Shown here: positions 1 to 34,748 of the stretch, piece after piece | Layout: every line of letters begins with the position of its first letter | Position numbering within the stretch: position 1 is the first letter of the stretch | Assembly (NCBI GenBank): GCA_024640025.1 | Contig: JAHEFT010000017.1 | Span: 1 to 34,903, forward strand | DNA from: Chromatiales bacterium | GTDB lineage: Bacteria > Pseudomonadota > Gammaproteobacteria > Xanthomonadales > SZUA-36 | DNA: 34,903 nt | Reading direction: 5' to 3' | Translations under genes and position numbers: made by a program | The notes under the pieces: model-generated | Database searches by the model: none | Seen by the model: the letters and a program-made list of their open reading frames with translations, nothing else | What the model was told of the DNA's origin: nothing

Positions 1-171
1 AATGGTTTCATCGTCCCGAATATTTTCGTTCCAGGTTTCCTGCAGAAGCGCCAGCTCTGCGCGGACATTGGCCACTTTTGCGGGGTCGGTCATGCGCTCC
101 GACTTAATTTCGAGGATAGTGATTTTGTCCAGGACTTCGCCGGGGGAAACGGGTACGCGCAGGTGATCCAT
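1..171 (-). CDS. DUF6165-like protein, N-terminal part (gene runs off the window)
   Basis: The last 57 codons before the window edge read without a stop from an ATG at 171 and begin MDHLRVPVSPGEVLDKITIL, followed by EIKSERM and an acidic helix-like stretch. This start (VSPGE.LDKITILEIK) matches what I remember of the DUF6165 family, small cytosolic proteins of unknown function seen near surface-polysaccharide genes. A ribosome binding site GGAGAA sits just upstream (175-180), and only 9 bases separate it from the stop of the dioxygenase gene, so it is the last visible member of the phosphonate operon. The 3' end lies outside the window, so length and function cannot be judged. Confidence 0.65.
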   Translation of the reverse strand, partial: MDHLRVPVSPGEVLDKITILEIKSERMTDPAKVANVRAELALLQETWNENIRDDETI

Positions 172-180
172 GAGTTCTCC

Positions 181-945
181 TTAAACCTTGAAACTGTAAT
201 CCTTGTCGGGATCGCGTTCTATGTCAGGCGGATAGCTTTCCCGCTTATCAGTATAGTACTGCTCGCGGGAATCGCCCTCGGCAAGCTTGTTGTAGGTGAT
301 GTAGAGAACGCGTCTGGCATCCGAAGTGCGGTTGGGTTGTGAGCGATGTGGCGCATAGGAATCGAAGAACACCGCGTCACCGGGCCGGCAATGCACGGCG
401 ACATATTCAGCATGTCCCGTGTCGTCGTCGGTCAGCGGCGCCCACATGGAACCGAGCACCCCTTGCCTGTGCATGCCGGCAATCATTTCAAGGCTGCCGT
501 TCGCCTCGTTGGTTTCGTCAATGGCGATCATCGCGGTGATGTGGATGGCAGCGTAATCATCCCAGCCGGCCTGGACGTCCTGGTGCTCCTTGAAACCGTC
601 ACCACCCGGCAGCTTGAAGTTGATCTTGTCCTTGAACAACACCGCTTCCTCGCCGAACAGTTCTGAAACCGCCTGCTGCATGCGGCGAGCGGTGATCAGT
701 CTGGCGAAGCCTTCATGATAGGGCACAAAATTCTCGATGCGGCACAGGATGCGCGAACCGTCGTCCTGGCTGTTCTCGAAATACATCATGGCTTTGCCGG
801 GGACTTCAGGCCGGGCAGCAACCTCGTCGGTCCACTCGCTGATGGCGGCGATTTCTTCAGCCGAATACATGCCCCGCACGACGAGAAAGCCATCGCGTTT
901 GAATTGTTCGACCTGTTGCGGGGTCAGAATTCTCTCAGACTTCAT
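181..945 (-). CDS. PhyH-family Fe(II)/2-oxoglutarate dioxygenase
   Basis: A 254-residue protein of the phytanoyl-CoA dioxygenase family, predicted to hydroxylate a small substrate using Fe(II), O2 and 2-oxoglutarate in the cytosol. The iron triad is visible as H121-Q-D123 and H200 (in SYAPHRSQPNR), with R211/R212 as the likely 2-oxoglutarate ligand. The start at 945 is chosen over a start 13 codons upstream because GGAGGAGT (952-959) lies 6 bases before it and the longer version would run into the preceding gene. Family members include PhnY, which hydroxylates AEP at carbon 1. Lying at the end of an AEP biosynthesis operon, and with no PhnZ-type HD oxygenase in view, it may add a hydroxyl to AEP or to the finished AEP polymer. 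That substrate is inferred from context only. Confidence 0.88.
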   Translation of the reverse strand: MKSERILTPQQVEQFKRDGFLVVRGMYSAEEIAAISEWTDEVAARPEVPGKAMMYFENSQDDGSRILCRIENFVPYHEGFARLITARRMQQAVSELFGEEAVLFKDKINFKLPGGDGFKEHQDVQAGWDDYAAIHITAMIAIDETNEANGSLEMIAGMHRQGVLGSMWAPLTDDDTGHAEYVAVHCRPGDAVFFDSYAPHRSQPNRTSDARRVLYITYNKLAEGDSREQYYTDKRESYPPDIERDPDKDYSFKV

Positions 946-951
946 TTGAAT

Positions 952-959
952 ACTCCTCC
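952..959 (-). promoter_or_regulatory. Strong ribosome binding site that fixes the dioxygenase start
   Basis: GGAGGAGT on the minus strand, 6 bases before the ATG at 945. It lies in the 23-base gap after the YidC-like gene and decides the start in favour of MKSERILTPQ. Confidence 0.75.
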
Positions 960-968
960 AGCGGGATT

Positions 969-2378
969 CTAGCGGCGCGCCCACAGGCTCTTGATGACGG
1001 AAATCAGGTTGTTGGTGGTCCAGTAAAGCACCATTCCCGCCGGGAAGGTGTAGAACAGCACGAAGAACGCGGTGGCCAGTAGCAGCATGTTGCGCACCTG
1101 CTTTTTCCGCAGTTCAGTGGTCAGCGCCAACGGATTGTGCAGGGCCGAGGCAACGACCGAGAGCCCGGTCATCAAAAATGGCAAGGCGTTCAGTTCACTG
1201 CCGAAGAACGGCAGAGTGAACGGCAGGTTGAAGAGGTCATCGGGGCGGGACAGATCGGAAATCCAGAGAAACCCCGTATTCAACAGGTGGATGTTTTCCG
1301 CCAGCATGTCAAAGGCGCCGATAAACACCGGGATCACCACGGCCACTCCCACCAGGCTTTTCAGGCTGTATAGCGGATGCACCCGTTCAGTCTTGTACAG
1401 AGCCAGGATTTTTGCGGACTGCTCCTCCCCTTTGTAATTCTTCTTGATGCGCTGCAATTCCGGAGCCAACCGCGCCTCCGTGTCATTGACCTGGTCCTGA
1501 AAACGTTGGGCGATACGGCTGAGCGGCGTCATCAGGATGTTGACGCCCAGGGACATAGCCATCACCGCCAGGCCCCAGGAAGGGATAAACGCGTGTATGC
1601 CCGCCAGGAAGTGGAACATCGCAAAACAGATCCAGCGCAGCCAGAACCACAAGCCGGCATACAGAAGCTTTTGCAGATCAGGACTCGCATGACTTAATGC
1701 AGTCGGCTCTATTGGTCCTAAATAGAACGTCCATGCGCCATTGGACATATCGATATCAATTAAGGCATCGCTGTTATCTTCGGCCGTCCGCAGCCTGGCG
1801 ATGACCCCGGCAGGCGGCGCCGCCATCAATGTCCAGTAACGGTTGCGGTAACCCACCCACTGGTCGGCTTCCACCTGCGTAGTATCGGTGTCATCGAAAC
1901 CAATCTGGCTGACAGTTCCGGACTGAAGTGCCACGTAGCGGCTTTGCTCCAGCCAGTTACCGAAGCCGGCCGCCTCCCTCGGCCTGAACGACTCACCTGA
2001 ACGGATCGACATGGTGCGAATGCCTGACTGCTCCAGTTCGACCCGGTAGCCGCGCAACGGCACGCGCCACGTCAGTGCCGCACCCGGTTCCTGACGAAAG
2101 GTGAGCTCGACATGAGTATCGGTGCGGTTCTGAAAAGGTATCCACCGCCCTTTTCCAGCGGGCTCAAAACGAATAGCCGAATCATCACTGAACTGCTGGA
2201 TGCGGACGTTTTCACCCTGGCAGGCAGGAAAGCAGGCGAAAGCTGACCTCAGGTTACCCTCGGAATCAAAGGTCAACCGCAGGGTATCCGTGTTGACCAG
2301 GGTTTCCGCGTTGACATCCGAATGCGCGCACACAGCCAGGACTCCCAGAAGCAACCAGTGCACAAGCCGGACTCTCAT
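969..2378 (-). CDS. YidC/Oxa1-like membrane protein (divergent paralogue)
   Basis: This 469-residue protein has a signal-peptide-like N-terminus (1-24), a periplasmic beta-rich region (about 25-225) opening with VNTDTLRLTFDSEGNLRSA like the YidC P1 domain, and a C-terminal YidC/Oxa1 domain (about 236-469). The C-terminal signature FPAGMVLYWTTNNLI (445-459) and the C1-loop segment ILALYKTERVHPL are clear. Gram-negative YidC is usually longer, near 540-560 residues. The position normally held by the groove arginine (VRGIMYPL in E. coli) here reads VNILMTPL, so Arg is replaced by N280. It overlaps the glycerophosphotransferase-like gene by ATGA (2375-2378), implying translational coupling. Housekeeping yidC sits by rnpA/mnmE, so this is probably a specialised paralogue serving the phosphonate pathway; what it inserts or moves is unknown. 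Confidence 0.88.
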   Translation of the reverse strand: MRVRLVHWLLLGVLAVCAHSDVNAETLVNTDTLRLTFDSEGNLRSAFACFPACQGENVRIQQFSDDSAIRFEPAGKGRWIPFQNRTDTHVELTFRQEPGAALTWRVPLRGYRVELEQSGIRTMSIRSGESFRPREAAGFGNWLEQSRYVALQSGTVSQIGFDDTDTTQVEADQWVGYRNRYWTLMAAPPAGVIARLRTAEDNSDALIDIDMSNGAWTFYLGPIEPTALSHASPDLQKLLYAGLWFWLRWICFAMFHFLAGIHAFIPSWGLAVMAMSLGVNILMTPLSRIAQRFQDQVNDTEARLAPELQRIKKNYKGEEQSAKILALYKTERVHPLYSLKSLVGVAVVIPVFIGAFDMLAENIHLLNTGFLWISDLSRPDDLFNLPFTLPFFGSELNALPFLMTGLSVVASALHNPLALTTELRKKQVRNMLLLATAFFVLFYTFPAGMVLYWTTNNLISVIKSLWARR

Positions 2379-3541
2379 GGCTGGCGCCCTCTCCTGGCAG
2401 CCTGTCTTTCATCCGCCAGGCGAACGATCTCCTGCGCGCCATCGGGAATGCTGTGCCCGAGACGAAACACCAGCTTCTCGCGCAGTTCCTGCATTTTCGT
2501 GCGGAACCGTTCGGGTTCGCTCAACAGCCGTTCCACGGCTGCCGGGGCGTCCTGCAACGAATCGGGTGAGACGACTTCCCCGACCCGGGTCCGGATAACC
2601 GCCTCAATCGGCTCAATGCCCAGTTCACGCCAGTTTGGATTGCGTACCCGCCGGGGAACGTCGATAAACAAGACCGGCTTTTCCAGGCCCATCGCGTATT
2701 CCAGCGCCATCGCCGACCAGTCGCTGACGAGTATGTCAGAACGCATGATGGAGTCGGTTTCGCCCATCCGGTCAATGTATTCGAAGCGGTCGTTCCCGGC
2801 AAAGGCCTTCCTGGTCGCAGCGATCACGTCGGGGGTCTGACGGTTGCTCTGGTAATGCGGGCGCATGATCACCCGGTACCCTGCCTCCAGCAGTACGCGG
2901 ATCAATTCCCGGCCGCAAGTGTTGAAGATCGATTGCTCCCCCCAGGTCGGTGCGATCAGCACAGTAGCCGCTTCGGTCAGTGATTTTCCCGCGGTATATG
3001 TGCGGCCTTGTTCAATCACTGCTTCCAGCCTGGGGTGTCCGTAATCAAAAAGGTGCTTGGGCGGCAGCCCCTTCAGCTGTTCGCGCTTCCTGATTTCCTT
3101 CACCTGGTGAGGGCCGGCGCAAAACAGGGTTTCGTAGTGGTCGAACGAGTCTTCATTGTCGACCATGTGGGTACTGCCCATGCTGTGAAACAGGTATACG
3201 TAGTGGACCGGGTAGGTTGACCTTTTAAGGTTGAGGTTGTGCAGATCCATCATGGTCAACACGAAAATATCTGACCGGTTGACCTGAAAAAAAACGGTCA
3301 GGAACAACCCTTCGGGAATCCAGATAGCACGGTAGTTTTCATGCCGGCGTTCCAACCCCGGATCCGCCGGGTCCGATGTGACGTAACAGACTTTGCGCGC
3401 CAGCGGTCCATTCAATTGCTCGATGAGGCCGGAAAACTGGTGCCAGTCCTGGCCGCTTTCCGAGTAGATAACGATGTTTCGCCAATCCCAGGGCAGCTTG
3501 CGGAACTGACGCCACCCCCGCCAGCCGGACATCAGGCCCAT
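2375..3541 (-). CDS. CDP-glycerol glycerophosphotransferase-like transferase
   Basis: A roughly 388-residue cytosolic or peripheral transferase related to the TagF/TagB family, which moves phospho-alcohol groups from CDP-linked donors onto polymers. Numbering from the ATG at 3541, the two family histidines appear as H119 in YLFHSMGSTHMV and H229 in RVIMRPHYQSNR, and the donor-site signature as SDILVSDWSAMALEYAMGLEKP (split here: SDILVSDWSA then MALEYAMG, Ser276). A TTG codon at 3580 would add 13 residues; neither start has a strong ribosome binding site. Because the operon makes AEP and carries cytidylyltransferases, the donor is more likely CMP-AEP than CDP-glycerol, which is inference. The acceptor is not evident; no glycosyltransferase is in view. 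The stop overlaps the YidC-like start by 4 bases. Confidence 0.85.
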   Translation of the reverse strand: MGLMSGWRGWRQFRKLPWDWRNIVIYSESGQDWHQFSGLIEQLNGPLARKVCYVTSDPADPGLERRHENYRAIWIPEGLFLTVFFQVNRSDIFVLTMMDLHNLNLKRSTYPVHYVYLFHSMGSTHMVDNEDSFDHYETLFCAGPHQVKEIRKREQLKGLPPKHLFDYGHPRLEAVIEQGRTYTAGKSLTEAATVLIAPTWGEQSIFNTCGRELIRVLLEAGYRVIMRPHYQSNRQTPDVIAATRKAFAGNDRFEYIDRMGETDSIMRSDILVSDWSAMALEYAMGLEKPVLFIDVPRRVRNPNWRELGIEPIEAVIRTRVGEVVSPDSLQDAPAAVERLLSEPERFRTKMQELREKLVFRLGHSIPDGAQEIVRLADERQAARRGRQP

Positions 3542-3616
3542 GCCGGCGCCCCACGCGTAATCGCAAATGAAGGCTCGCAAGTGCGTCGCCTGCAGCCTCG
3601 TGGCCTTTCCCTTGCG

Positions 3617-3856
3617 TTACTCGGATACATCCTGCGACGAGGAACCGGACTTGTCGCCGCGCTTGAAGAAACCCTTGATCTTGTACCAATAGGTCTTAAC
3701 CGCCAGTGCGATCGAGGCGAAAATACCGACAATAGCCGAAACGACCATGCTGCCGGTGCTGGGGTCCAGGTAGGCAAACGCAGCCGGCGAAACCAGTAGC
3801 GAGCACAGCATCACTGCGCCAAGTATTTGGATAGCGGGTTTATTTGAATGTTTCAT
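3617..3856 (-). CDS. Small YLDP-motif membrane protein
   Basis: A 79-residue protein with a cleavable-looking signal peptide ending in SPAAFA, then a mature N-terminus YLDPSTGSM, one membrane helix (about 36-54, VVSAIVGIFASIALAVKTY) and a basic cytosolic tail WYKIKGFFKRG ending in a Ser/Asp-rich stretch. I have seen short proteins with YLDPGTGS after a signal peptide beside surface-polymer and phosphonate clusters, but I know of no assigned function. Its ATG overlaps the stop of the AEP transaminase by 4 bases (3853-3856), so it is a true operon member. It may be a membrane tether or a partner of the transferase and YidC-like protein encoded next. Confidence 0.82.
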   Translation of the reverse strand: MKHSNKPAIQILGAVMLCSLLVSPAAFAYLDPSTGSMVVSAIVGIFASIALAVKTYWYKIKGFFKRGDKSGSSSQDVSE

Positions 3857-4971
3857 TGCCCGATTTTATCACCCATAGAAGGCTGCCAGGCATCCTGGAA
3901 TAACACCGAGGAAAGCGCCGCCAGCAAGCGTTCCATGTCGTAACGGCTGATGTCCCCCATGGTCGAAATCCGGAACATCTCCGATACCAGTCTGCCCTGG
4001 CCGGCGTAAATGATGAATCCGCGCTGCTTCAGCCCATCGTGGATCTCGGCATAGGTCTTTCCGGAGGGCAGGCAGTAGGCATTGAGCACACAGGATGAAT
4101 CGCCCGGCTCCAGCAGCGGCTTGACGCCCTGCCGGGACAGCGCCCGCCTGACCTGGCCTGCCAGGCTGCTGTAATGCGCATGCCGGGCTTTCCACCCGCC
4201 CTGATTCCGCAATTCCGCCAACGCCTTATCGAGCGCCAGCAGGCTGTTCACGGGAGGTGTAAACGGCGTGCCTTGCTGATCCTGGGCGGTGACCCAGAGC
4301 GGCAGGTGCAGGTACAGGCTGCGCGGCGGCTCGGCGGCTGTTTCCAGGGATGTTTTCCGGGACAGAACGAAACAAAGGCCTGGAATGCCGTGCAGACACT
4401 TGTTGGCCGTGGCGGCACAGGCGATCAGCGCCGGTGATCCAAAGGGAATATTCTCCGCGCCGAAACTTGACACCGTATCGAGCAGTAAACCGGCGCCGGC
4501 CTGTTCACACAATTCCGCCAACCGTCCCATGTCATTCAGGCGCCCGGTCGTGGTTTCATGATGCACCGCTGCCACGTGGGTAAAATCACCCGCGGACAGG
4601 GCCTCCTCGACCCGCTCAAAATCGATGGGGTCCGTCCACTCGTGCTGAACGGCGCTGAATTCAATATTGTGAATGCCGGCGATTCGGCTGATACGCTCGC
4701 CATACACGCCATTCTCAACCACCAGCAAGCGCGCCTGCCGGGGAAGCAGCGAGGAGAGCATGGCTTCCAGGGCAGTGGTTCCGGAGCCGCCAAGTAACAC
4801 GGAAGTCCACTCGTCCGGGCTGCAGTTGTAGACATCCAGCAAACCGCTGCGGATGCGGTCCTGCAAGACGTAATACTCGGGTTCACGATGGCACAGGTCG
4901 GTGGCGACGGCCGCTTTTCTCACGCCATCGCTGATACTCACCGGCCCGGGATTCAGAAGGATATATCGCAT
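3853..4971 (-). CDS. phnW: 2-aminoethylphosphonate:pyruvate transaminase
   Basis: A 372-residue PLP enzyme of aminotransferase class V that interconverts phosphonoacetaldehyde plus alanine and AEP plus pyruvate. The N-terminus LLNPGPVSISDGVRKA, the GGSGTTALEAM phosphate-binding loop (61-71), D165 in LLLDTVSSFGAENIPF and the PLP lysine K191 in CAATANKCLHGIPG are as expected for PhnW. Length is normal for the family. In catabolic clusters PhnW feeds phosphonatase PhnX; here the neighbours are PEP mutase and phosphonopyruvate decarboxylase, so it works in the biosynthetic direction. It lies 11 bases after the methyltransferase gene and overlaps the following small membrane-protein gene. Confidence 0.93.
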   Translation of the reverse strand: MRYILLNPGPVSISDGVRKAAVATDLCHREPEYYVLQDRIRSGLLDVYNCSPDEWTSVLLGGSGTTALEAMLSSLLPRQARLLVVENGVYGERISRIAGIHNIEFSAVQHEWTDPIDFERVEEALSAGDFTHVAAVHHETTTGRLNDMGRLAELCEQAGAGLLLDTVSSFGAENIPFGSPALIACAATANKCLHGIPGLCFVLSRKTSLETAAEPPRSLYLHLPLWVTAQDQQGTPFTPPVNSLLALDKALAELRNQGGWKARHAHYSSLAGQVRRALSRQGVKPLLEPGDSSCVLNAYCLPSGKTYAEIHDGLKQRGFIIYAGQGRLVSEMFRISTMGDISRYDMERLLAALSSVLFQDAWQPSMGDKIGQ

Positions 4972-4982
4972 GCTCTGCCTGC

Positions 4983-5582
4983 TCAGCCGGCCGCGCGGTA
5001 CCAGAGGAGAATACCCGCCCCGACCTCGAAAACGGTGTAGACCAGTTCACCGTTGCGGATCATGGATTGTCGCAAATCCCACTCGGCGTCCGGGTTCGAC
5101 TTCCATTTCAGGCTGGTGGGAAACATGCCCGGAATGTTCCGGCTCCAGGCACGCCATTCATCCCCGAAAATACCTTCCAGCTTGTGATCCTCGTAACGAA
5201 TCGCAGCGGGGTAGTAAAATGCAAAAAAGCAAGCGACCGCGGCCACGACATACCCGTTGCCGGAGGCGATAGCGAAACCCACGAGAATCAGGAAATTACC
5301 AAGGTACAGGGGGTGGCGCACCAGCGAATAGGCCCCGGTAGAAGCCAGTTGCCGGTTCTTGTGAATCACGCCGGCCGCGTAAATTCTCCAGGCCTGGCCA
5401 ATGGCGGCAAGGGCAAAGCCGAGGAAGATTCTGGGCTCGCCTGCCGGCGCGGTGAAATAGGCACAGACCAGCAGGAGGATGAGCCCCAGTCCCTGGCGGG
5501 ACGCTTCATGGTAACGAAGGCGATCGATCAGGCCAGCCAGCCCGGTACGGTTACCCATTTTTTCAATGCGGCTGGATGTCAT
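4983..5582 (-). CDS. Membrane methyltransferase of the isoprenylcysteine carboxyl methyltransferase/PEMT type
   Basis: A 199-residue multi-pass membrane protein with the S-adenosylmethionine signature GAYSLVRHPLYLGNFLILVG (H90-P91) and the C-terminal block YYPAAIRYEDHKLEGIFGDEW (given in two parts: YYPAAIRYEDH, KLEGIFGDEW) typical of ICMT/phospholipid methyltransferases. Membrane helices fall at about 31-45, 50-70, 92-108 and 110-127. AGGAG precedes the ATG. In an AEP operon, by analogy with phosphatidylethanolamine N-methyltransferases, it could methylate the amine of AEP once attached to a lipid or polymer; this substrate is inferred. The family also methylates carboxylates and other groups, so the acceptor atom is uncertain. 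Confidence 0.85.
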   Translation of the reverse strand: MTSSRIEKMGNRTGLAGLIDRLRYHEASRQGLGLILLLVCAYFTAPAGEPRIFLGFALAAIGQAWRIYAAGVIHKNRQLASTGAYSLVRHPLYLGNFLILVGFAIASGNGYVVAAVACFFAFYYPAAIRYEDHKLEGIFGDEWRAWSRNIPGMFPTSLKWKSNPDAEWDLRQSMIRNGELVYTVFEVGAGILLWYRAAG

Positions 5583-5656
5583 GAAATGCTCCTTGTGTGC
5601 GCCGGTATGCTGTGGCCCAGGCGCTATTGTAAGAGTGCAGGTTCCAACTAGCCAGA

Positions 5657-6817
5657 CTATAGCGACAACCAGGGCGCTTCCACACCAAGGTGCCGCATCA
5701 GCCGTTGTTTCACCTCGCGCGGGGAGACATCCGGCCGCGGCAGTCCTTCGGGTATGCCCCGCCGGGTTTTCAATTGCAGCAGAGAAGGTCCCTGAGCCGC
5801 CTTCAGAAAGACGTCGAGTTCCGCACGCGAAACCGATTCGCGGGCCTCACGATATCCACACGCTTTCGCTACAGCGGCGAAACTGACGGCGGGGCTCACC
5901 GTGGCCTGCCCCCCGGTCGATTCATGCACCCCGTTATCAAGCAGCAGGTGCCTGAAATTGCTTTCTCCATAGGCGCCGATGGTCGCCAGGTTGCCCATTC
6001 GCATCAGGGCAGCGCCATCGCCGTCCGCCACCAGGACCTGCTTTTCCGGCAAGGCCAGCGAAAGACCCAGACCCAGCGAAGAGGCGCACCCCATCGACCC
6101 CACCATGTACAGGTGATTGGGCCGGTCGGCGATGGCAAACAACTCCCGACCCGTATAACCGGTAGTACCGATCAGCACGCTCGTATCGACCGGCGTACTC
6201 TCAACCATGGCGCTCAGCGCCTGCTGCCGGCTCAATTCAGGCTCTTCCGTGCAGAAATCCTCCGCTGCAAAACCAGCCGGCCTCGCTTCAGGCAGCCAAC
6301 GAGTGTTCAACTCAGCCTTCTCTACCGAACCTTTTCGCATAATCAGGGCGTAGGGCAATCCGGTTCGCTCCATCTGCCAGGTGGCAACGGTCAACACCCC
6401 TTCAACCTCATCCGCCTGGCGCGGAAACCAGACCCAGGGAATCTGGAGTTCATCCAGTATCCGGCCGGTAATCTGCCCCATCAGTTCGTGTTGCGGCTCA
6501 TCCGGCAGACCGGGCTCGCCACGCAAGGTGATGATCAGCAGGATCGGAACACGAAATACCCAGTTCAGTGAACTCAACGGGCTGACCGCGTTTCCCAGTC
6601 CGGAATTCTGCATCATCGCCACCGTCCGTTGTCCGGCCAGTGCGGCGCCGGTGGCGGTCGCCACGGCGTCACCTTCATTCGAAGACGCGATGTACGTCAT
6701 ATCCGGATCATCGATCACGCTGTTGATGAACGGGGTTAAAAACGAACAGGGCACGCCGGCCCAGGTTTTAAAACCGAAATCCTTTGCGGGATTGATGAAG
6801 TCTGTGGCTTGAATCAT
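5657..6817 (-). CDS. aepY: Phosphonopyruvate decarboxylase
   Basis: A 386-residue thiamine diphosphate enzyme that decarboxylates phosphonopyruvate to phosphonoacetaldehyde, pulling the unfavourable PEP mutase reaction forward. The N-terminal Pyr domain shows the catalytic Glu in SSNEGDAVATATGAALAG (E48) and the block MMQNSGLGNAVSPLSSLN (69-85). The C-terminal PP domain has the ThDP/Mg motif VADGDGAALMRMGNL (GDG 266-268) ending at N295 in LLLDNGVHESTGG. Length matches the family. It follows pepM by 14 bases. No other ThDP enzyme fits this context better. Confidence 0.95.
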   Translation of the reverse strand: MIQATDFINPAKDFGFKTWAGVPCSFLTPFINSVIDDPDMTYIASSNEGDAVATATGAALAGQRTVAMMQNSGLGNAVSPLSSLNWVFRVPILLIITLRGEPGLPDEPQHELMGQITGRILDELQIPWVWFPRQADEVEGVLTVATWQMERTGLPYALIMRKGSVEKAELNTRWLPEARPAGFAAEDFCTEEPELSRQQALSAMVESTPVDTSVLIGTTGYTGRELFAIADRPNHLYMVGSMGCASSLGLGLSLALPEKQVLVADGDGAALMRMGNLATIGAYGESNFRHLLLDNGVHESTGGQATVSPAVSFAAVAKACGYREARESVSRAELDVFLKAAQGPSLLQLKTRRGIPEGLPRPDVSPREVKQRLMRHLGVEAPWLSL

Positions 6818-6831
6818 GGGCGTTTTGGACC

Positions 6832-8469
6832 TCAGGAATCGTGGCGGTGAGCAAAATCACCGGCTCTTTGCAGGTCTTCCAGGTTGTTGATATCCATCCA
6901 GTGGCCGGAAATGTATTGCACCTGCGGGGCGTGACCGTTAAGCACCAGGCGATTGATCAGGTCCGGCAAACCCAGACTGTCGAAGCCGGCACCCGCCTGG
7001 AGCTGCTTCAGCGCTTCCAGCAGATGGGCCCTGCCCCCGCCGCGGGCGCGCATCATTCCAATCCACCGCCCGTCCGGATTGCGGCCATTCCAATCGCCGG
7101 CGCTGCTGATCTGTTCCAACGTGACCTTCTGCTGGTACATGGCGCGATCGTCCGGGGCCGAGCAATAGGCCAGATCGTGCTTGTTTCCCTGCGCCTGATG
7201 AATCGGGGAAGAATCCACCACGACCAGGAGTTCGCCATCCCAGTCCATCAGGTTATTCAGGATGTAGCTGCGGAACAGGAGGTCACCGTAAATCAGCACC
7301 GTGTCCGTCGCAACCGAATCCAGGGCGCAGGTCAGAGAAACCAGTTCGTCGCTGTTTTCCCAATCTTCATTGACCACCAGGGCCGAACCCTGAACGTCAA
7401 TGGCCTCGCTTTGGTATCCACCCACCACGGTGATGTCGTTTATGCCCTGCGCCTTGAACCGGTCCACGTGGCGGCGCAAAACGGTCTTACCGGCCACCGG
7501 GATCATCACCTTGGGGCGGGTGCGGGTCAGTTCATCCATACCCTGTCCCCGACTGGCCGCCAGGATGATCGCCGAGGTGTCCTGCCGAGCGCTTTTTGCA
7601 TAGATTTTTTCCGCCTCGAGCAGTTCGTCCGCCCCCTGCAGGCGAAAAATTTCAGACACCGTGGCCACCCTTCCCTCCACATCGACCAGGGATTCCGATT
7701 CGAACAGCGTGCGCGCCGTAGCCTGCATGGCCGCAATATTGGTTCGTACCAGATGATTGGCCCAGATTACCAGGCTGATTTTGTGCTGACGGAATACCTC
7801 GGTGGGTGTTGAATAATACTTCGTGGGCACGATCACCAGCGGGCAGCGATTACCCCACTCATCGGCGAAAGCCAGGATTTCATCGGGCTGTGACAGCTTG
7901 CTGTGGATCAGGATGGCGTCTGCGCCGGCCTGCCGGTAGGCCTCGCCGCGCTTGACGGCCTCCTCCAGCCCCCAACCGGCGATCAGGGCCTCGACCCGGG
8001 CGACAATGCAGAAATCGTCATCAACCTGCGCATCCTTGCCTGCCTTGATTTTGCCGCAAAATGTGTCGATGTCTTCCAGTTCCTGTTTTTCGCCCTGGAT
8101 GAAACTGTTGGTCTTGGGAAACAGCTTATCCTCGATGCAGACGCCTGCGACGTCACGCTGTTCCAGTTTGCGCACCAACCGACGCATGTTGTTGAAATCG
8201 CCGTAACCCGTATCACCATCCAGCAGGATGGGAATGGCGGTCGCATCAGACATGAATTCCAGCACATTCACGACCTGGGTCCAGCTGAGTTCGTTATTGT
8301 CGCGCACCGCGTGCTGCGCCGATAACGCGAGTCCCGAGGCCCATATACCACTGAATCCGGCCTCTTCGACAATCTTTGCCGAAAGGCCGTTGTGGGCCTC
8401 GAGAATGAACTCTGTCCGGTCGGACAGGAGCAGGTTCTTCAACTGGGTAGGCTTGTTTACCGCGCTCAT
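6832..8469 (-). CDS. pepM: Phosphoenolpyruvate mutase fused to a nucleotidyltransferase
   Basis: A 545-residue bifunctional protein. Residues about 8-290 are PEP mutase, which rearranges PEP to phosphonopyruvate and makes the C-P bond: [13 protein letters not shown] holds the metal-binding region, and [10 protein letters not shown] (113-122) is the mutase hallmark that separates it from isocitrate lyase relatives. Residues about 299-545 are an NTP transferase domain with [19 protein letters not shown] (302-320), a metal-type Asp in LIYGDLLF (D396) and [10 protein letters not shown] near the end. The domain resembles PntC-type cytidylyltransferases that activate AEP as CMP-AEP, and the altered GxGxR loop is what I recall for such fusions. 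The start at 8469 is chosen because an ATG 31 codons upstream would overlap the previous gene and those codons look unlike the family. Confidence 0.94.
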
Positions 8470-8479
8470 TTCCGGGGCC

Positions 8480-9241
8480 TCAAAATTTCGGATAGTCCTT
8501 ACGGATCTCGGGAAGCACCGCTTCGCCCGCCCGCACCACATCTTCAGGGAAGTCGATTTCAATCCACGGCAAACCGGTCACGTCCTCGAATCCGAACCAG
8601 TCCGGCTGCCGGAGTAACACATTCCGCAGGGCTTCCTCGTGCGGCGCATCGCCCAGGCCTTCAGCCTCAAATCGCGCACATTCTGTTGCAATGGCCGCCG
8701 CACACGCGGGCCCGAAGCGGAAAAAGCCGACCGACTCACCGAGCATATCGTATTTCAACCCGTCAGCCAGCTGCTTGCGGAATTCCACCATGGCGCCATC
8801 ACGCACGGCAATCTTGACGGGTTCATCGCCGGGCGTGAAGTCCCGGTCCAGCAGATAGCAATTTTCAACCGGCGTATCCACCAGCCTTTGCAGGATCGCC
8901 GGGTGGTAGAGTACGTCGGCATCCATCACGATCACCGGGGTCCCCGACTCCAGGGTCTCACGGGCCGCCAAAAGGCTCAGAACACTGCCCTGCTCAAAGC
9001 GCGGATTGAAATGGAACGCCACGTCGGGGCGGGAAAAAAGCGTGCCCACGTGTTCGATAATGAGGTCGGCCCCGTAGCCTACCACCAGGTCGGCATGACG
9101 CACGCCGGACTGGTTCAGCACGTCCAGGTGCCGGTCCAACAGGCTGCGGCCGCCAAACTCCATCAGGCACTTCGGATGCCCTTCCGGATTATGTTCCGCC
9201 AGCCGGCTTCCACGGCCGGCAGCAAGGATAATTGCGCGCAT
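8480..9241 (-). CDS. Stand-alone sugar-phosphate/phosphoalcohol nucleotidyltransferase
   Basis: A 253-residue nucleotidyltransferase with an intact signature loop [14 protein letters not shown] (1-14), K24 in [10 protein letters not shown], metal-binding D107/D109 in [10 protein letters not shown], and a C-terminal [15 protein letters not shown] with D230. This form is close to phosphocholine-type or AEP cytidylyltransferases (LicC/PntC-like). It is the first gene of the minus-strand operon and lies 10 bases before pepM. It could make CMP-AEP, or activate a different alcohol or sugar needed for the acceptor, because pepM carries its own nucleotidyltransferase. No Shine-Dalgarno sequence is visible before the ATG; see the promoter entry. 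Confidence 0.88.
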
Positions 9242-9246
9242 GGCTT

Positions 9247-9252
9247 ATTGTA
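9247..9252 (-). promoter_or_regulatory. Possible -10 box placing the transcript start near the ATG of the phosphonate operon
   Basis: TACAAT on the minus strand lies 5 bases upstream of the ATG at 9241, with no ribosome binding site between. If real, transcription would begin about at the start codon and give a leaderless mRNA. The -35 region (around GCCACT) is poor, so support is weak. Confidence 0.25.
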
Positions 9253-9392
9253 GCGCGAACCGTTTTTTAGTGGCTACGGAGACCGCGCTGTGCAGCACCT
9301 CGATTGCCTCTTCGCCGAAGGCTGATAGACTGGTAGATCAGGATTGACTCGACCGTATTCAGAGCACCACCACCAGACAGAGGATTGCGCAC

Positions 9393-10889
9393 ATGACTTT
9401 TCCCAAACCCGAATTCAAGACCCGCTACGAGAACTTCATCGATGGCCAGTGGACGCCGCCGGCCGGTGGTGAATATTTCGACAACTCATCACCCGTGGAT
9501 GGCGCCAACTTCTGCGAGATACCGCGCTCCAGGGCCGCGGATATTGATTTGGCCATCGCTGCAGGAGAGCGCGCCTTTCCAGCCTGGTCCAAAACATCAG
9601 TAGCAGAGCGCAGCGGTATCCTCCTGAAAATCGCAGATCGTATCGAACAAAACCTGGAAATGCTGGCTGCCGTGGAAACCTGGGACAACGGCAAGAGTAT
9701 CCGCGAATGCCTGGCGGCCGATCTGCCGCTGGCGATCGATCATTTCCGCTACTACGCCGGCGTTATTCGCGCCGAGGCGGGTGATGTGGCCAACCTCGAT
9801 GCATCGACGGTTTCGATGGAAGTACACGAACCCCTCGGCGTGGTCGGCCAGATCATTCCCTGGAACTTCCCGATCCTGATGGCGACCTGGAAACTGGCCC
9901 CGGCCCTGGCGGCCGGCAACTGCGTGGTGCTGAAGCCGGCTGAGCAAACCCCGGCCTCGATCCTGGTGCTGATGGAACTGATCAGTGACCTGTTGCCGCC
10001 TGGCGTACTGAACATCGTCAATGGTTTCGGCATTGAAGCGGGTAAACCACTGGCATCCTCCCCGCGCATCGCCAAGGTTGCCTTTACCGGTGAGACCACC
10101 ACTGGACGCCTGATCATGCAATATGCCTCGGAGAACATCATTCCGGTTACGCTGGAACTGGGCGGCAAGTCACCGAATATCTTCTTCTCCAGCATCATGG
10201 ACAAGGATGATGAATTCCTCGACAAGGCGATCGAAGGCTTTGTGATGTTCGCACTCAACCAGGGCGAAGTGTGCACCTGTCCGTCGCGAGCGCTGATCCA
10301 CGAGTCAATCTATGACGCCTTCATGGAGCGCGTGCTGAAACGCGTCGCCGCGATCAAGCAGGGCGATCCGCTGGATCCCACGACCATGATCGGAGCCCAG
10401 GCTTCCAGCGACCAGCATGAGAAAATACTCAGTTACCTGGATATCGGCAAGGCGGAAGGCGCAGAAGTACTGATCGGCGGTGAAGCGGGCAGCGTTGAGC
10501 AATATCCAAACGGCTATTACATCCAGCCGACGGTATTCAAGGGAAACAACAGGATGCGTGTATTCCAGGAAGAGATCTTTGGACCGGTGGTCAGCGTGAC
10601 AACCTTCAAGGATGACGAGGAGGCCATGCAAATCGCCAATGACACGATCTACGGCCTGGGCTCCGGTATCTGGACGCGGGACATCCACCAGGGTCAGGCA
10701 TTCATCAGCGGCATAGAGGCGGGTCGTGTGTGGGTCAATTGCTACCACCTGTATCCGGCGCACGCTTCTTTCGGCGGCTACAAGAAATCCGGCATCGGGC
10801 GCGAAACCCACAAGATGATGCTGAACCACTACCGCCACACCAAGAATGTGCTGATGTCCTTTGACAAAAACCCGATGGGTTTCTTCTAG
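9393..10889 (+). CDS. NAD-dependent aldehyde dehydrogenase (AldB/ExaC-like)
   Basis: A 498-residue aldehyde dehydrogenase that oxidises an aldehyde to its acid. It has the NAD-site block [19 protein letters not shown] (154-172), [10 protein letters not shown], the catalytic Glu E256 in LELGGKSPN and the nucleophile C294 in [12 protein letters not shown]. The C-terminal ending NPMGFF and the GEVCTC active site match the AldB/ExaC acetaldehyde dehydrogenase clade. GAGG about 10 bases before the ATG serves as ribosome binding site. The next gene is DUF779, a known companion of this clade. The region upstream (9242-9392) is shared with the divergent phosphonate operon. The aldehyde used is not determined by the sequence. 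Confidence 0.94.
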
Positions 10890-33197: not shown

Positions 33198-34748
33198 TTA
33201 CTCCTGGCTCTGCATGAATCGTTCGGTCAACTTGTCGACCGACCATGAATCCGCCCGTTGGCTGGGCGGATATTCTCCGAATGTCTGCAGGAATTGAGTG
33301 GTCGTGGCCAGTCCCAGGTATATATGGGGCGCCTTGGTGATCACCCAGTCCCAATACGTATTGGAATTGTGATCGGCACGTTCGAACGGGTCACGGCGCA
33401 GATTGAAAATCTTCGGCATCTTGAGCACCACCATCGGCTCGGCCCACAGGGCCAGGGTCTGGGCACGCTGTTCCGCGTAAACCAGCTTCCAGTCTCCCAC
33501 ACGAACACCGACGGGCATCCCCGAGTCTTCCAGGTAGTGAAACACCTGCCGTGGACCGTGCTCCACCTCGCCTGTCAGGTAAGGCAGGAAGTTGTAGCCA
33601 TCGAGGTGAACCCTGTACTGCTTTCCATCAACCGTCTTCCCTGCTTTCAGCGATTCGATGATGTCAGGGTCGCCGGCGGCCGCCATCAGGGTCGGTACCC
33701 AGTCCAGGTGGCTCATGATATCGTTGTACACGATGCCCGCTGGAATCCGACCCGGCCAGCGCACCATGGCGGGCACCCGGTACGCGCCTTCCCAGTTACT
33801 CATTTTCTCGCTTCGGTACGGTGTGATTCCCGAATCCGGCCAGGTATTGAAGTGCACGCCGTTGTCGGTGGAATACATCACGATGGTATTGTCCGCAATG
33901 CCCAGCTCATCCAGCTTGTTCAGGAGCACGCCAACCGTATCGTCATGCCCCATCATCGTGTCGTTATAAGGCCCCTGTCCGGATCGGCCGACATCAGACG
34001 GCTTGGTGTGGGTGCGGAAATGCATATGGGTCGCGTTGAACCACACAAAAAACGGCTTGTCGGCAGCCACTGCGCGATCCATGAAGTCCAGGCTTGCCGC
34101 GAGAAATTCTTCGTCCACGGTTTCCATGCGCTTGCGCGTCAGGGGGCCGGTATCCTCAATAGCGCCATCAGCGTAGGAATGGATCACGCCCCGCGGGCCG
34201 AATTTAGCCTTGAACCACGGCTGGGTCGGGTAATCCGCATCTTCGGGTTCCTCCTCGGCATTCAGGTGATAAAGATTGCCGAAAAATTCGTCGAATCCGT
34301 GGGCTGTTGGCAGGAATTCATCCTTGTCACCCAGGTGGTTCTTTCCGAACTGGCCGGTCGCATAACCTTCCGACCTCAACAGGGTCGCCAGGGTCACATC
34401 GCGGTCCTGCAAACCGATATCGGCACCAGGCAAACCCACTTTGCTGAGTCCGGTCCGGAGTGGCGACTGCCCCGTTATAAAGGACGAGCGGCCGGCTGTG
34501 CAGCTCTGGTCGCCATAGTAATCAGTAAACCGCACACCTTCAGCAGCTATACGGTCGATATTGGGGGTGCGGTAACCCATGGCGCCGTCGTTGTAGGCAC
34601 TGATGTTGTAGACCCCGATATCGTCACCCCAGATGATCAGGATGTTGGGTTTGTTTTCCTGCGCCCATGCGGTAGCTGAACCGACCAGGCAGGCACCGGT
34701 AAGCAACAGCCCCCGGAGTACTCTCATACCAGGATTTGAAGACATCAT
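33198..34748 (-). CDS. Secreted arylsulfatase-type sulfatase
   Basis: A 516-residue sulfatase with a signal peptide (1-about 30, ending TAWA) that would act in the periplasm or outside. The metal site starts at WGDDIG, and the catalytic loop is SCTAGRSSFITGQ with Cys83, to be converted to formylglycine, and Arg87. The third position is Ala rather than the usual Pro or Ala of CxPSR/CxASR, but Cys and Arg are present. Later GKNHLGDKDE and MYSTDNGVHFN carry the expected His and Asp/Asn ligands. The sulfated substrate is unknown. No formylglycine-generating enzyme is in view. Two tandem ATGs start the gene with AAGGG upstream. Confidence 0.93.
   Translation of the reverse strand: MMSSNPGMRVLRGLLLTGACLVGSATAWAQENKPNILIIWGDDIGVYNISAYNDGAMGYRTPNIDRIAAEGVRFTDYYGDQSCTAGRSSFITGQSPLRTGLSKVGLPGADIGLQDRDVTLATLLRSEGYATGQFGKNHLGDKDEFLPTAHGFDEFFGNLYHLNAEEEPEDADYPTQPWFKAKFGPRGVIHSYADGAIEDTGPLTRKRMETVDEEFLAASLDFMDRAVAADKPFFVWFNATHMHFRTHTKPSDVGRSGQGPYNDTMMGHDDTVGVLLNKLDELGIADNTIVMYSTDNGVHFNTWPDSGITPYRSEKMSNWEGAYRVPAMVRWPGRIPAGIVYNDIMSHLDWVPTLMAAAGDPDIIESLKAGKTVDGKQYRVHLDGYNFLPYLTGEVEHGPRQVFHYLEDSGMPVGVRVGDWKLVYAEQRAQTLALWAEPMVVLKMPKIFNLRRDPFERADHNSNTYWDWVITKAPHIYLGLATTTQFLQTFGEYPPSQRADSWSVDKLTERFMQSQE

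Follow-up and report, generated by a model that had tools for sequence, protein, structure and literature searches.

How activated phosphonates reach and cross the cell envelope is an unsettled question, and passages of PMC6697681 state that the tailoring steps after the phosphoenolpyruvate (PEP) mutase PepM 'remain enigmatic'. An operon that bears on this question lies in contig JAHEFT010000017.1 of a Chromatiales bacterium (assembly GCA_024640025.1), which was analysed over its whole length of 34,903 nucleotides and is called the window here. The locus offers a conserved parts list for the envelope steps: a TagF-like transferase, a putative anchor (the small membrane protein YLDP), a paralogue of YidC (YidC2), and a protein joining DUF3413 to a sulfatase domain. 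We give a probability of roughly 0.6 to the reading that the enzymes of the operon convert PEP into 2-aminoethylphosphonate (AEP), which is activated as a CMP conjugate and then joined to a lipid or glycan of the envelope, probably in the core region of lipopolysaccharide (LPS). The membrane set is best read as an envelope-decoration machine, fed here with CMP-AEP. Gene identities and gene association are observed, and from them we infer the substrates, the acceptor, and the direction of transfer.

The operon and its phosphonate enzymes

The window is the entire contig (C37) of a 2.9 Mb assembly that is 82% complete, and the nearest named relatives in the species-genome scan described below are metagenome-assembled genomes (MAGs) of the Lysobacterales/Xanthomonadales. 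From position 9241 to 1, the minus strand carries one tightly packed operon that is cut by the contig end (Table 1), with an aldehyde dehydrogenase gene starting divergently at 9393. Nine operon genes keep the same order, with 62-87% identity, in three other loci (L019, L020, and L022), and the arrangement is therefore not due to chance.

An earlier, sequence-only reading of this DNA had named the phosphonate and membrane genes, all of which are present on the minus strand, with PepM, phosphonopyruvate decarboxylase (Ppd), and the AEP transaminase (AEPT) above their curated cut-offs. Its parts list missed the methyltransferase, the dioxygenase, the DUF6165-like gene, and the likely partner, the DUF3413-sulfatase. 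It also placed the end of the operon at the YidC-like gene, behind which the dioxygenase and DUF6165-like genes still follow before the contig ends. The overlap it described for the YLDP, transferase, and YidC-like genes holds for transferase and YidC2 (4 bp) and not for YLDP and transferase, the only other 4-bp overlap being that between AEPT and YLDP.

The PepM translation contains a match to EDKXXXXXNS, given as the PEP mutase motif in passages of PMC6697681. The fusion protein also matches the PEP mutase 1m1b in the PDB (E 3.3e-121). PepM, Ppd, and an AEP transaminase together convert PEP into AEP, and those of the operon would do so here. CMP-AEP would then be made by one or both nucleotidyltransferases, consistent with the statement in PMC6697681, as far as its passages go, that some PF12804 enzymes make CMP-AEP. 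The PDB matches of the first cytidylyltransferase are weak and include PntC (6pd1, 24.3 bits) and LicC (1jyk, 24 bits). The nucleotide-binding start of the two enzymes differs, being AAGRGSRL in the free enzyme (8480-9241) and another stretch in the PepM-fused domain; going by their sequences, the two may act on different phosphonates, or one of them may be inactive.

The methyltransferase and the dioxygenase would modify the headgroup, giving methyl- and 1-hydroxy-AEP. The former scores 55.7 bits against the model of the lipid A 1-phosphate O-methyltransferase LmtA, below its cut-off of 325. The latter, whose open reading frame (ORF) opens at GTG 984 and whose start at ATG 945 was picked from homologues, scores 191.4 against the methylphosphonate hydroxylase model NF052437 and does not reach the cut-off of 500. 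By its sequence it is a relative of phosphonate hydroxylases, and we do not assign it as PhnY* or methylphosphonate hydroxylase. The product of PhnY* is R-1-hydroxy-AEP, and hydroxy-AEP is reported from an amoebal polysaccharide and from bacterial phospholipids (PMC8154272, in part). ORFs homologous to the DUF6165-like gene stand behind the dioxygenase or YidC2 in L019 and L021-L029; the PF19662 score of 32.8 bits was obtained with the L029 copy and not with the window fragment.

Table 1 Genes of the operon, in order of transcription, with the matches that identify them.
Gene	Position	Strand	Support
LicC/PntC-like MobA-type cytidylyltransferase, 253 aa, first operon gene	8480..9241	-	PF12804 57.2 bits (cut-off 27)
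Fusion of PEP mutase with the second MobA-type nucleotidyltransferase, 546 aa	6832..8472	-	TIGR02320 386.8 (cut-off 319.55); PF12804 45.7 bits (cut-off 27)
Phosphonopyruvate decarboxylase (Ppd), 386 aa	5657..6817	-	TIGR03297 423.2 (cut-off 312.5)
PEMT/ICMT-type membrane methyltransferase, 199 aa	4983..5582	-	PF04191 36.9 bits; PF04140 30.1 bits
AEP transaminase (AEPT), 372 aa	3853..4971	-	TIGR03301 386.8 (cut-off 360.8)
YLDP small membrane protein, 79 aa	3617..3856	-	Signal-peptide-like start, AYLDPSTGS, one hydrophobic stretch, basic tail
TagF-like GT-B transferase, 388 aa from ATG 3541 (ORF opens at TTG 3580)	2375..3541	-	PF04464 35.4 (cut-off 22.1)
YidC paralogue (YidC2), 469 aa	969..2378	-	PF02096 96.3 (cut-off 35); TIGR03592 99.9 (cut-off 84.3)
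PhyH-family, PhnY*-like dioxygenase	181..945	-	PF05721 100.9 bits
DUF6165-like gene, 5' part (first 57 codons), cut by contig end	1..171	-	Homology to ORFs in relatives

The membrane set and its association with pepM

We searched 200 genomes of the window's order, 35 of them from its own family, for four genes, and found matches for YidC2 in 31, for pepM in 21 (20 over the family cut-off), for the transferase in 27, and for DUF3413 in 27; absence here means no match at the search threshold, in assemblies that may be incomplete. Within the own family, the transferase occurs in 16/17 genomes with pepM versus 2/18 without, and DUF3413 in 15/17 versus 1/18 (Fisher 6e-7 for each, kinship ignored). 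YidC2 is found in 13/17 versus 6/18 (Fisher 0.018, kinship again ignored), and the four pepM genomes without a YidC2 match are truncated within the operon: G428 retains a weak YidC2 start (35 bits) at the contig end, the contig of G423 stops in Ppd, and the transferase of G472 and G487 is cut by the contig end. One pepM-free genome with YidC2, which is 65% complete (G492), has both transferase and DUF3413. A smaller test on YidC2 genomes, partly the same assemblies, found DUF3413 in 6/6 with pepM and 0/4 without, and outside the own family G312 is a pepM genome with all of the genes.

Scanning 84,980 species genomes with an alignment of five paralogues and two short patterns gave 39 YidC2 loci, with the same locus holding pepM in 14 (partial in L026, L030, and L046), the transferase in 24, and YLDP in 28. 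Together with the transferase counts in the own family, this bears out the co-occurrence with pepM for which the sequence-only reading had proposed a search. A sulfatase-type protein of the alkaline-phosphatase (AP) superfamily is present in 26/39, three of which (L051-L053) count by likeness to an L013 protein that is itself below the sulfatase cut-off. Many of the missing genes fall at contig ends. The set contains duplicates (L012, L013, and L014 equal L045, L051, and L053; L231 equals L024) and partly shares assemblies with the 200 order genomes (DUF3413 coordinates agree between G357 and G299, the L019 genome). Of the 25 pepM-free loci, 6 come from genomes with pepM elsewhere, in that of L031 as two halves at contig ends, and 19 from genomes with no match; the assemblies of L024, L025, L027, and L028 match neither pepM nor the transferase.

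The transferase belongs to PF04464, by its profile score and its GT-B fold. Its AlphaFold2 model, built from 22 sequences (mean pLDDT 90.9), has TagF (3l7l, E 1.8e-12) as best Foldseek match, and VIA-align gives TagF a Z of 21.2, in a tie with UDP-GlcNAc 2-epimerases; a PDB sequence search returned only beta-galactosidase rows, at E 0.15 or worse. Near residue 28, we observe the motif E-S-[GSR]-Q-D-W-H in 16/22 aligned rows, 14 of which have pepM in the locus, with pepM in halves in the L031 genome and none found in that of L050. The remaining six (L051, L052, L053, L056, L057, and L017) show E-x-x-x-Y; five of their genomes have no pepM match, and that of L017 (G097) has partial matches on other contigs. 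This change of motif hints at a switch of donor.

YLDP has five invariant residues among 13 aligned sequences (Y29, D31, P32, S36, and W57) and no Pfam family above cut-off. We considered a piece of an ABC-3 transporter and rejected it, since the score of 18.2 bits is below the cut-off of 20.1. In L017 a YLDP segment forms the N-terminus of the transferase; this fusion and the layout of YLDP, in which YLDPxTGS follows the signal-like start, would, by predicted topology, place the transferase on the cytosolic side. CMP-AEP would be the probable donor of the transferase, and YLDP the probable anchor that keeps it on the inner side of the membrane, where it would move the phosphonyl group to a membrane-bound acceptor. 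The proposal that YLDP and the YidC-like protein form a membrane unit, made in the sequence-only reading, gains support from the YLDP-transferase fusion of L017 and from YidC-sulfatase fusions in L015 and L017.

The DUF3413-sulfatase is the likely partner of this set. By tblastn, a relative stands between transferase and YidC2 in L026, L029, L031, L033-L041, L046, and L050, and adjoins YidC2 in L023 and in L032, where it is cut by the contig start. Pfam confirms both domains for L023, L029, L031, and L033, and the sulfatase domain alone for L032. The window's assembly encodes one DUF3413 protein, on contig C57, which is 55% identical to the operonic L029 copy and scores 150.8 bits against the DUF3413 profile (cut-off 27.1). 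The two copies scored against the YejM/LapC model NF038282 stay below its cut-off of 825, with 278 and 270.1, the latter being the C57 copy. Residue 315 (L029 numbering), which we take to be the counterpart of Thr302 in E. coli YejM, is Ser in seven and Thr in two of the nine copies compared. The AP-type residues D279, S314, R316, D485, H486, and H500 are identical in at least 8/9 copies. E. coli YejM itself is described, in passages of PMC7576196, as a magnesium phosphatase, akin to LtaS and EptA, whose active site includes Asp268 and Thr302.

Two simple descriptions of the membrane module were rejected. It is not phosphonate-specific, because related sets without pepM occur in several phyla: combinations of YLDP, YidC2, and a sulfatase-type protein, frequently joined by the transferase, are found in pepM-free form in Bacteroidota, Acidobacteriota, and Pseudomonas, and in exopolysaccharide clusters. 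In 8/8 pepM-free genomes of other families of the order with YidC2 and transferase (G310, G327, G337, G379, G389, G404, G414, and G419), YLDP, transferase, and YidC2 share one locus, and three genomes (G330, G359, and G479) have YLDP and YidC2 without the transferase. Nor is the module general to phosphonate producers, because it is absent near pepM in 20/20 other pepM genomes of a class sample. This sample comprises 274 genomes, 21 of them with pepM; three of the 20 other pepM contigs are shorter than 9 kb, and the second pepM copy of G047 was left out. One of these loci, L104, shows a DUF3413 relative that is 35% identical, and its transferase match is weak (45 bits). On a contig other than that of pepM, G196 has YidC2 and G097 has the YLDP-transferase and YidC-sulfatase fusions.

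The YidC paralogue and the site of action

YidC2 belongs to the YidC/Oxa1 family by PF02096, TIGR03592, and its fold. It is not the housekeeping copy, which lies beside mnmE on another contig (C139) and is 30% identical to YidC2 over residues 217-464; against the housekeeping YidC equivalog of NCBIfam, YidC2 scores 106.9 at best (cut-off 479). The AlphaFold2 model, built from 26 sequences (mean pLDDT 89.4), covers all of E. coli YidC, including the periplasmic P1-like beta domain and the membrane core (6al2: Foldseek E 1.3e-20; VIA Z 24.8, 4.4 A over 415 residues). In a 42-row tree, a long branch leads to a single clade of the three housekeeping YidC (support 100/100), and if the root falls on this branch, with only these three housekeeping rows in the tree, the paralogues would be one group. 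Among the rows taken as housekeeping, G216 was checked by its locus and G188 was placed by tree position only. Fragments (L030, L046, L055, and L057) were left out, L015 and L017 were trimmed to 240 residues, and the frame-broken L039 was entered as a 364-aa ORF.

Window residue N280 aligns with the groove arginine of E. coli, which we take to be R366, so that the basic residue is not present in YidC2. The position is N in 7 and G in 5 of the 12 tree rows of the window clade, K in the 11 rows of a second gammaproteobacterial clade, R or K in 14 other unfused paralogues, and K in the three housekeeping rows. Among the 16 own-family loci with a letter there, in a set found without patterns, we count N in 5, G in 8, and K, H, and Q in one each; by these alignments, loss of the basic residue appears frequent and not universal in the own family. 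The first helix of the membrane core (TM2) carries LW-x-W-[LM]-R, with its R in 34/37 unfused paralogue rows and 0/3 housekeeping rows, a signature that is partly selected because one of the two search patterns covered it. In the pattern-free order search, R is found in 24/28 YidC2 loci with a letter there (G in one, A in three). YidC2 also has a few extra residues before TM4. A sulfatase domain is fused to the YidC of L017, and L015 shows a fusion of this kind in which the sulfatase match is weaker (22.8 bits, against a cut-off of 25).

The altered groove position and the fusion to an AP-type domain favor a changed role for YidC2. We propose that it acts with the YejM/LtaS-like AP-superfamily protein, encoded elsewhere in this genome, and that the two would pass the product on, in the membrane and on its outer side. 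Tentatively, YidC2 might be an assembly or insertion factor for the complex. Somewhat more doubtful is a scramblase-like passage of the lipid-linked headgroup across the membrane, an activity for which E. coli YidC offers a precedent in vitro, as it scrambles lipids there (PMC10491306, a preprint, in part). The rest of the probability goes to other roles of YidC2. More doubtful again is the wider scheme in which a YidC/Oxa1 branch left protein insertion and became the membrane-passage part of a widespread envelope-decoration machine: a YLDP-anchored transferase would load a headgroup (AEP here, other CDP- or CMP-linked groups elsewhere) on a lipid-linked acceptor, YidC2 would scramble the lipid via its groove, and an LtaS/YejM-type enzyme, sometimes fused, would transfer the headgroup outside.

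The strongest competitor, which has a real though minor share of the probability, departs from our reading in the role of YidC2 only: the protein would be a dedicated insertase or chaperone for YLDP and the multi-span DUF3413-sulfatase, with no part in moving lipid or phosphonate. Its match to E. coli YidC along the whole protein, periplasmic domain included, is what such an insertase would show, and small or polytopic membrane proteins (YLDP, DUF3413, or another sulfatase-type protein) adjoin it in many loci. Against it, five genomes keep YidC2 although neither the transferase nor DUF3413 is matched in them, and no YLDP was seen in the L024, L025, L027, and L028 loci. The groove position is N or G in 12/12 window-clade rows (though K, H, or Q once each in further own-family genomes), and the sulfatase-domain fusion of L017, and weakly of L015, would be odd for an insertase with a free client. 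The persistence of YidC2 without the other genes favors neither an assembly factor nor lipid passage clearly.

The neighbors of the operon in relatives point to a site of action. Behind DUF6165, window-clade loci have a GT9 heptosyltransferase-type gene and then a Kdo/WaaP-type kinase. Among the 13 loci with at least 3 kb behind the YidC2-PhyH end, GT9 is found in 11 (L019, L022-L029, L232, and L240) and the kinase in 10, L026 ending before the kinase position. This linkage, together with the lipid-type methyltransferase, points to the LPS core, as a candidate site, or to a membrane lipid. No GT9 or kinase match was seen in L033-L041, where, to judge from the gene content, the acceptor may be different.

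The same neighbors could mean that YidC2 and DUF6165 belong to a lineage-specific LPS-core pathway with the phosphonate genes as mere neighbors, since PEMT-YidC2-DUF6165-GT9-Kdo kinase is kept in L025, L027, L028, and L232, in genomes without a pepM match. We consider this unlikely: in the second gammaproteobacterial clade (L033-L036 and L039-L041), whose loci have no PEMT or DUF6165 match, YidC2 still follows pepM-transferase-DUF3413, and in the 8/8 pepM-free genomes of other families described above, YLDP, transferase, and YidC2 stay in one locus. Inside the window clade of the tree, L024, without pepM, forms a pair with L023, whose genome has pepM (100/99), and L025, L027, and L028 group with L026 and L029 (100/100); these placements fit a loss of the phosphonate genes with YidC2 kept. 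Very improbable is a free or exported small phosphonate, or AEP breakdown, which the PhnY*-related dioxygenase could suggest (passages of PMC8154272 describe an oxidative route of AEP breakdown that starts with PhnY*), given that PepM, Ppd, and AEPT share the operon with cytidylyltransferases and envelope genes, that relatives show LPS-gene linkage, and that no PhnX, PhnA, or PhnZ was recognised by eye among the window ORFs, with no profile search aimed at them.

Several observations weigh against the reading of an operon that decorates the envelope with AEP. The operons of the window, L019, L020, and L022 contain no DUF3413 gene, and ten genomes of one other family (f2) have DUF3413 without pepM. 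Five own-family genomes (G328, G350, G371, G438, and G482) have YidC2 and no match for pepM, transferase, or DUF3413. Outside the own family, neither YidC2 nor the transferase was matched in 3/4 of the order's pepM genomes (G376, G429, and G452), and in the class sample the stretches fetched around pepM in the 20 other genomes hold no YLDP or YidC2. YidC2 is under purifying selection in pepM-free loci too: the pairwise ratio of non-synonymous to synonymous substitution (dN/dS) is 0.14 for L023/L024 (pepM in one only), 0.14 for L025/L028 (pepM in neither), 0.17 for L027/L028, and 0.14 for window/L019 (pepM in both), values to be read with synonymous sites near saturation (dS 1.0-1.7). A GT9 gene was found neither in the 3.1 kb available in L021 nor in the 5.1 kb of L238, which is also without DUF6165, and several of the MAGs are incomplete. 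The suggestion in the sequence-only reading that this YidC paralogue is dedicated to phosphonate does not survive the pepM-free sets in several phyla, the five YidC2-only genomes, the selection seen there, and the many class-sample pepM clusters, most of the total, without the module.

Known systems and related loci

The chemistry is of a known kind, phosphonate surface tailoring via CMP conjugates. PntC-type CMP-AEP activation serves cell-surface tailoring according to passages of PMC6697681, and the operon resembles the Pnt pathways described there in the fusion of PepM to a MobA-like nucleotidyltransferase, the second nucleotidyltransferase nearby, the AEP genes, and the envelope context. 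For those pathways, however, the paper names LicD-like phosphotransferases or glycosyltransferases, whereas here we observe a TagF-like transferase with YLDP and YidC2, and with the DUF3413-sulfatase in relatives; the main text of PMC6697681 does not mention YidC, glycerophosphotransferase, insertase, or TagF. The wall teichoic acid transferases TagF and TarL share PF04464, the GT-B model, and the best Foldseek match, TagF, but here the anchor sits on a separate or fused YLDP, the donor-side motif varies with gene context, and VIA gives the tie with UDP-GlcNAc 2-epimerases. E. coli YidC has the same whole fold with its P1-like domain, and differs from YidC2, a second copy in its genome, at N280 in the basic groove site, in the TM2 signature, and in the residues before TM4. 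YejM/PbgA/LapC shares the DUF3413 and sulfatase domains and the AP-type residues, whereas the present family is below the NCBIfam cut-off, tracks pepM in the own family, and is operonic in relatives.

Arn- or LtaS-type routes activate a group, load it on a lipid, flip it, and transfer it outside. The set of cytosolic transferase, membrane protein, and periplasmic AP-type enzyme resembles them by analogy only. A membrane set that includes a YidC paralogue did not appear in the open-licence literature searched, among the matches listed. Judged by title and start of abstract, those matches include no relevant paper for YidC with phosphonate or polysaccharide terms, which does not show absence from print; the motif YLDPGTGS was not found in the open-licence papers searched, and the main texts of PMC8931226 and PMC9381506 do not mention YidC.

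The locus suggests that the YidC family has been recruited for bacterial surface decoration. If YidC2 does move lipid headgroups, the Oxa1 superfamily would gain a biological role in lipid transport that matches the scrambling seen in vitro, and it would be worth re-examining the YidC duplicates of polysaccharide clusters that are labelled insertases by profiles. With a transport role shown, the YidC2-based machine would be the larger novelty.

Some related loci show further features. In Bacteroidota and in Methylohalomonas (M. lacus, L045, an isolate with a pepM-free version) and its relatives, the locus has no transferase, and a protein with the motif SFRDPSGF stands beside YLDP, YidC2, and the sulfatase-type protein. 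This family, about 465-500 aa long with the motif near the start, is seen in L042 (7688-9112), L045 (7489-8949), L044, L048, L049, L054, and L233-L235; the L042 copy gave no Pfam match and the L012 copy no NCBIfam match. In L056 (the isolate Pseudomonas canadensis Feb-92, with a pepM-free version), a set of nucleotidyltransferase, transferase, YLDP, and YidC2 has close by a 1022-aa protein (3417-6485) that starts like a nucleotidyltransferase and contains PEP-utiliser/PPDK-type domains. The L039 locus (Woeseia sp., 4630-9648) has its AEPT, nucleotidyltransferase, transferase, and DUF3413-type matches in separate pieces, and looks frame-broken or misassembled. The window itself also holds a sulfatase-like gene with a signal-like start (by eye) at 33198-34748 on the minus strand, far from the operon and with no sign of linkage to it.

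A PhnY*-like dioxygenase, 53-60% identical, lies near pepM in L035 (783-1526), L092 (16192-16965), L105 (16570-17310), and L106 (16407-17165), and no DUF6165 match was seen in these four loci. Because the dioxygenase thus accompanies pepM in clusters without a DUF6165 match as well, hydroxylated AEP may be commoner. Two pepM clusters without the YidC2 module, L092 and L100, adjoin genes that by eye are hopanoid/isoprenoid-like (DXS-like, radical SAM HpnH-like, and squalene/phytoene-synthase-like), and a link to a phosphonate-modified hopanoid is possible there.

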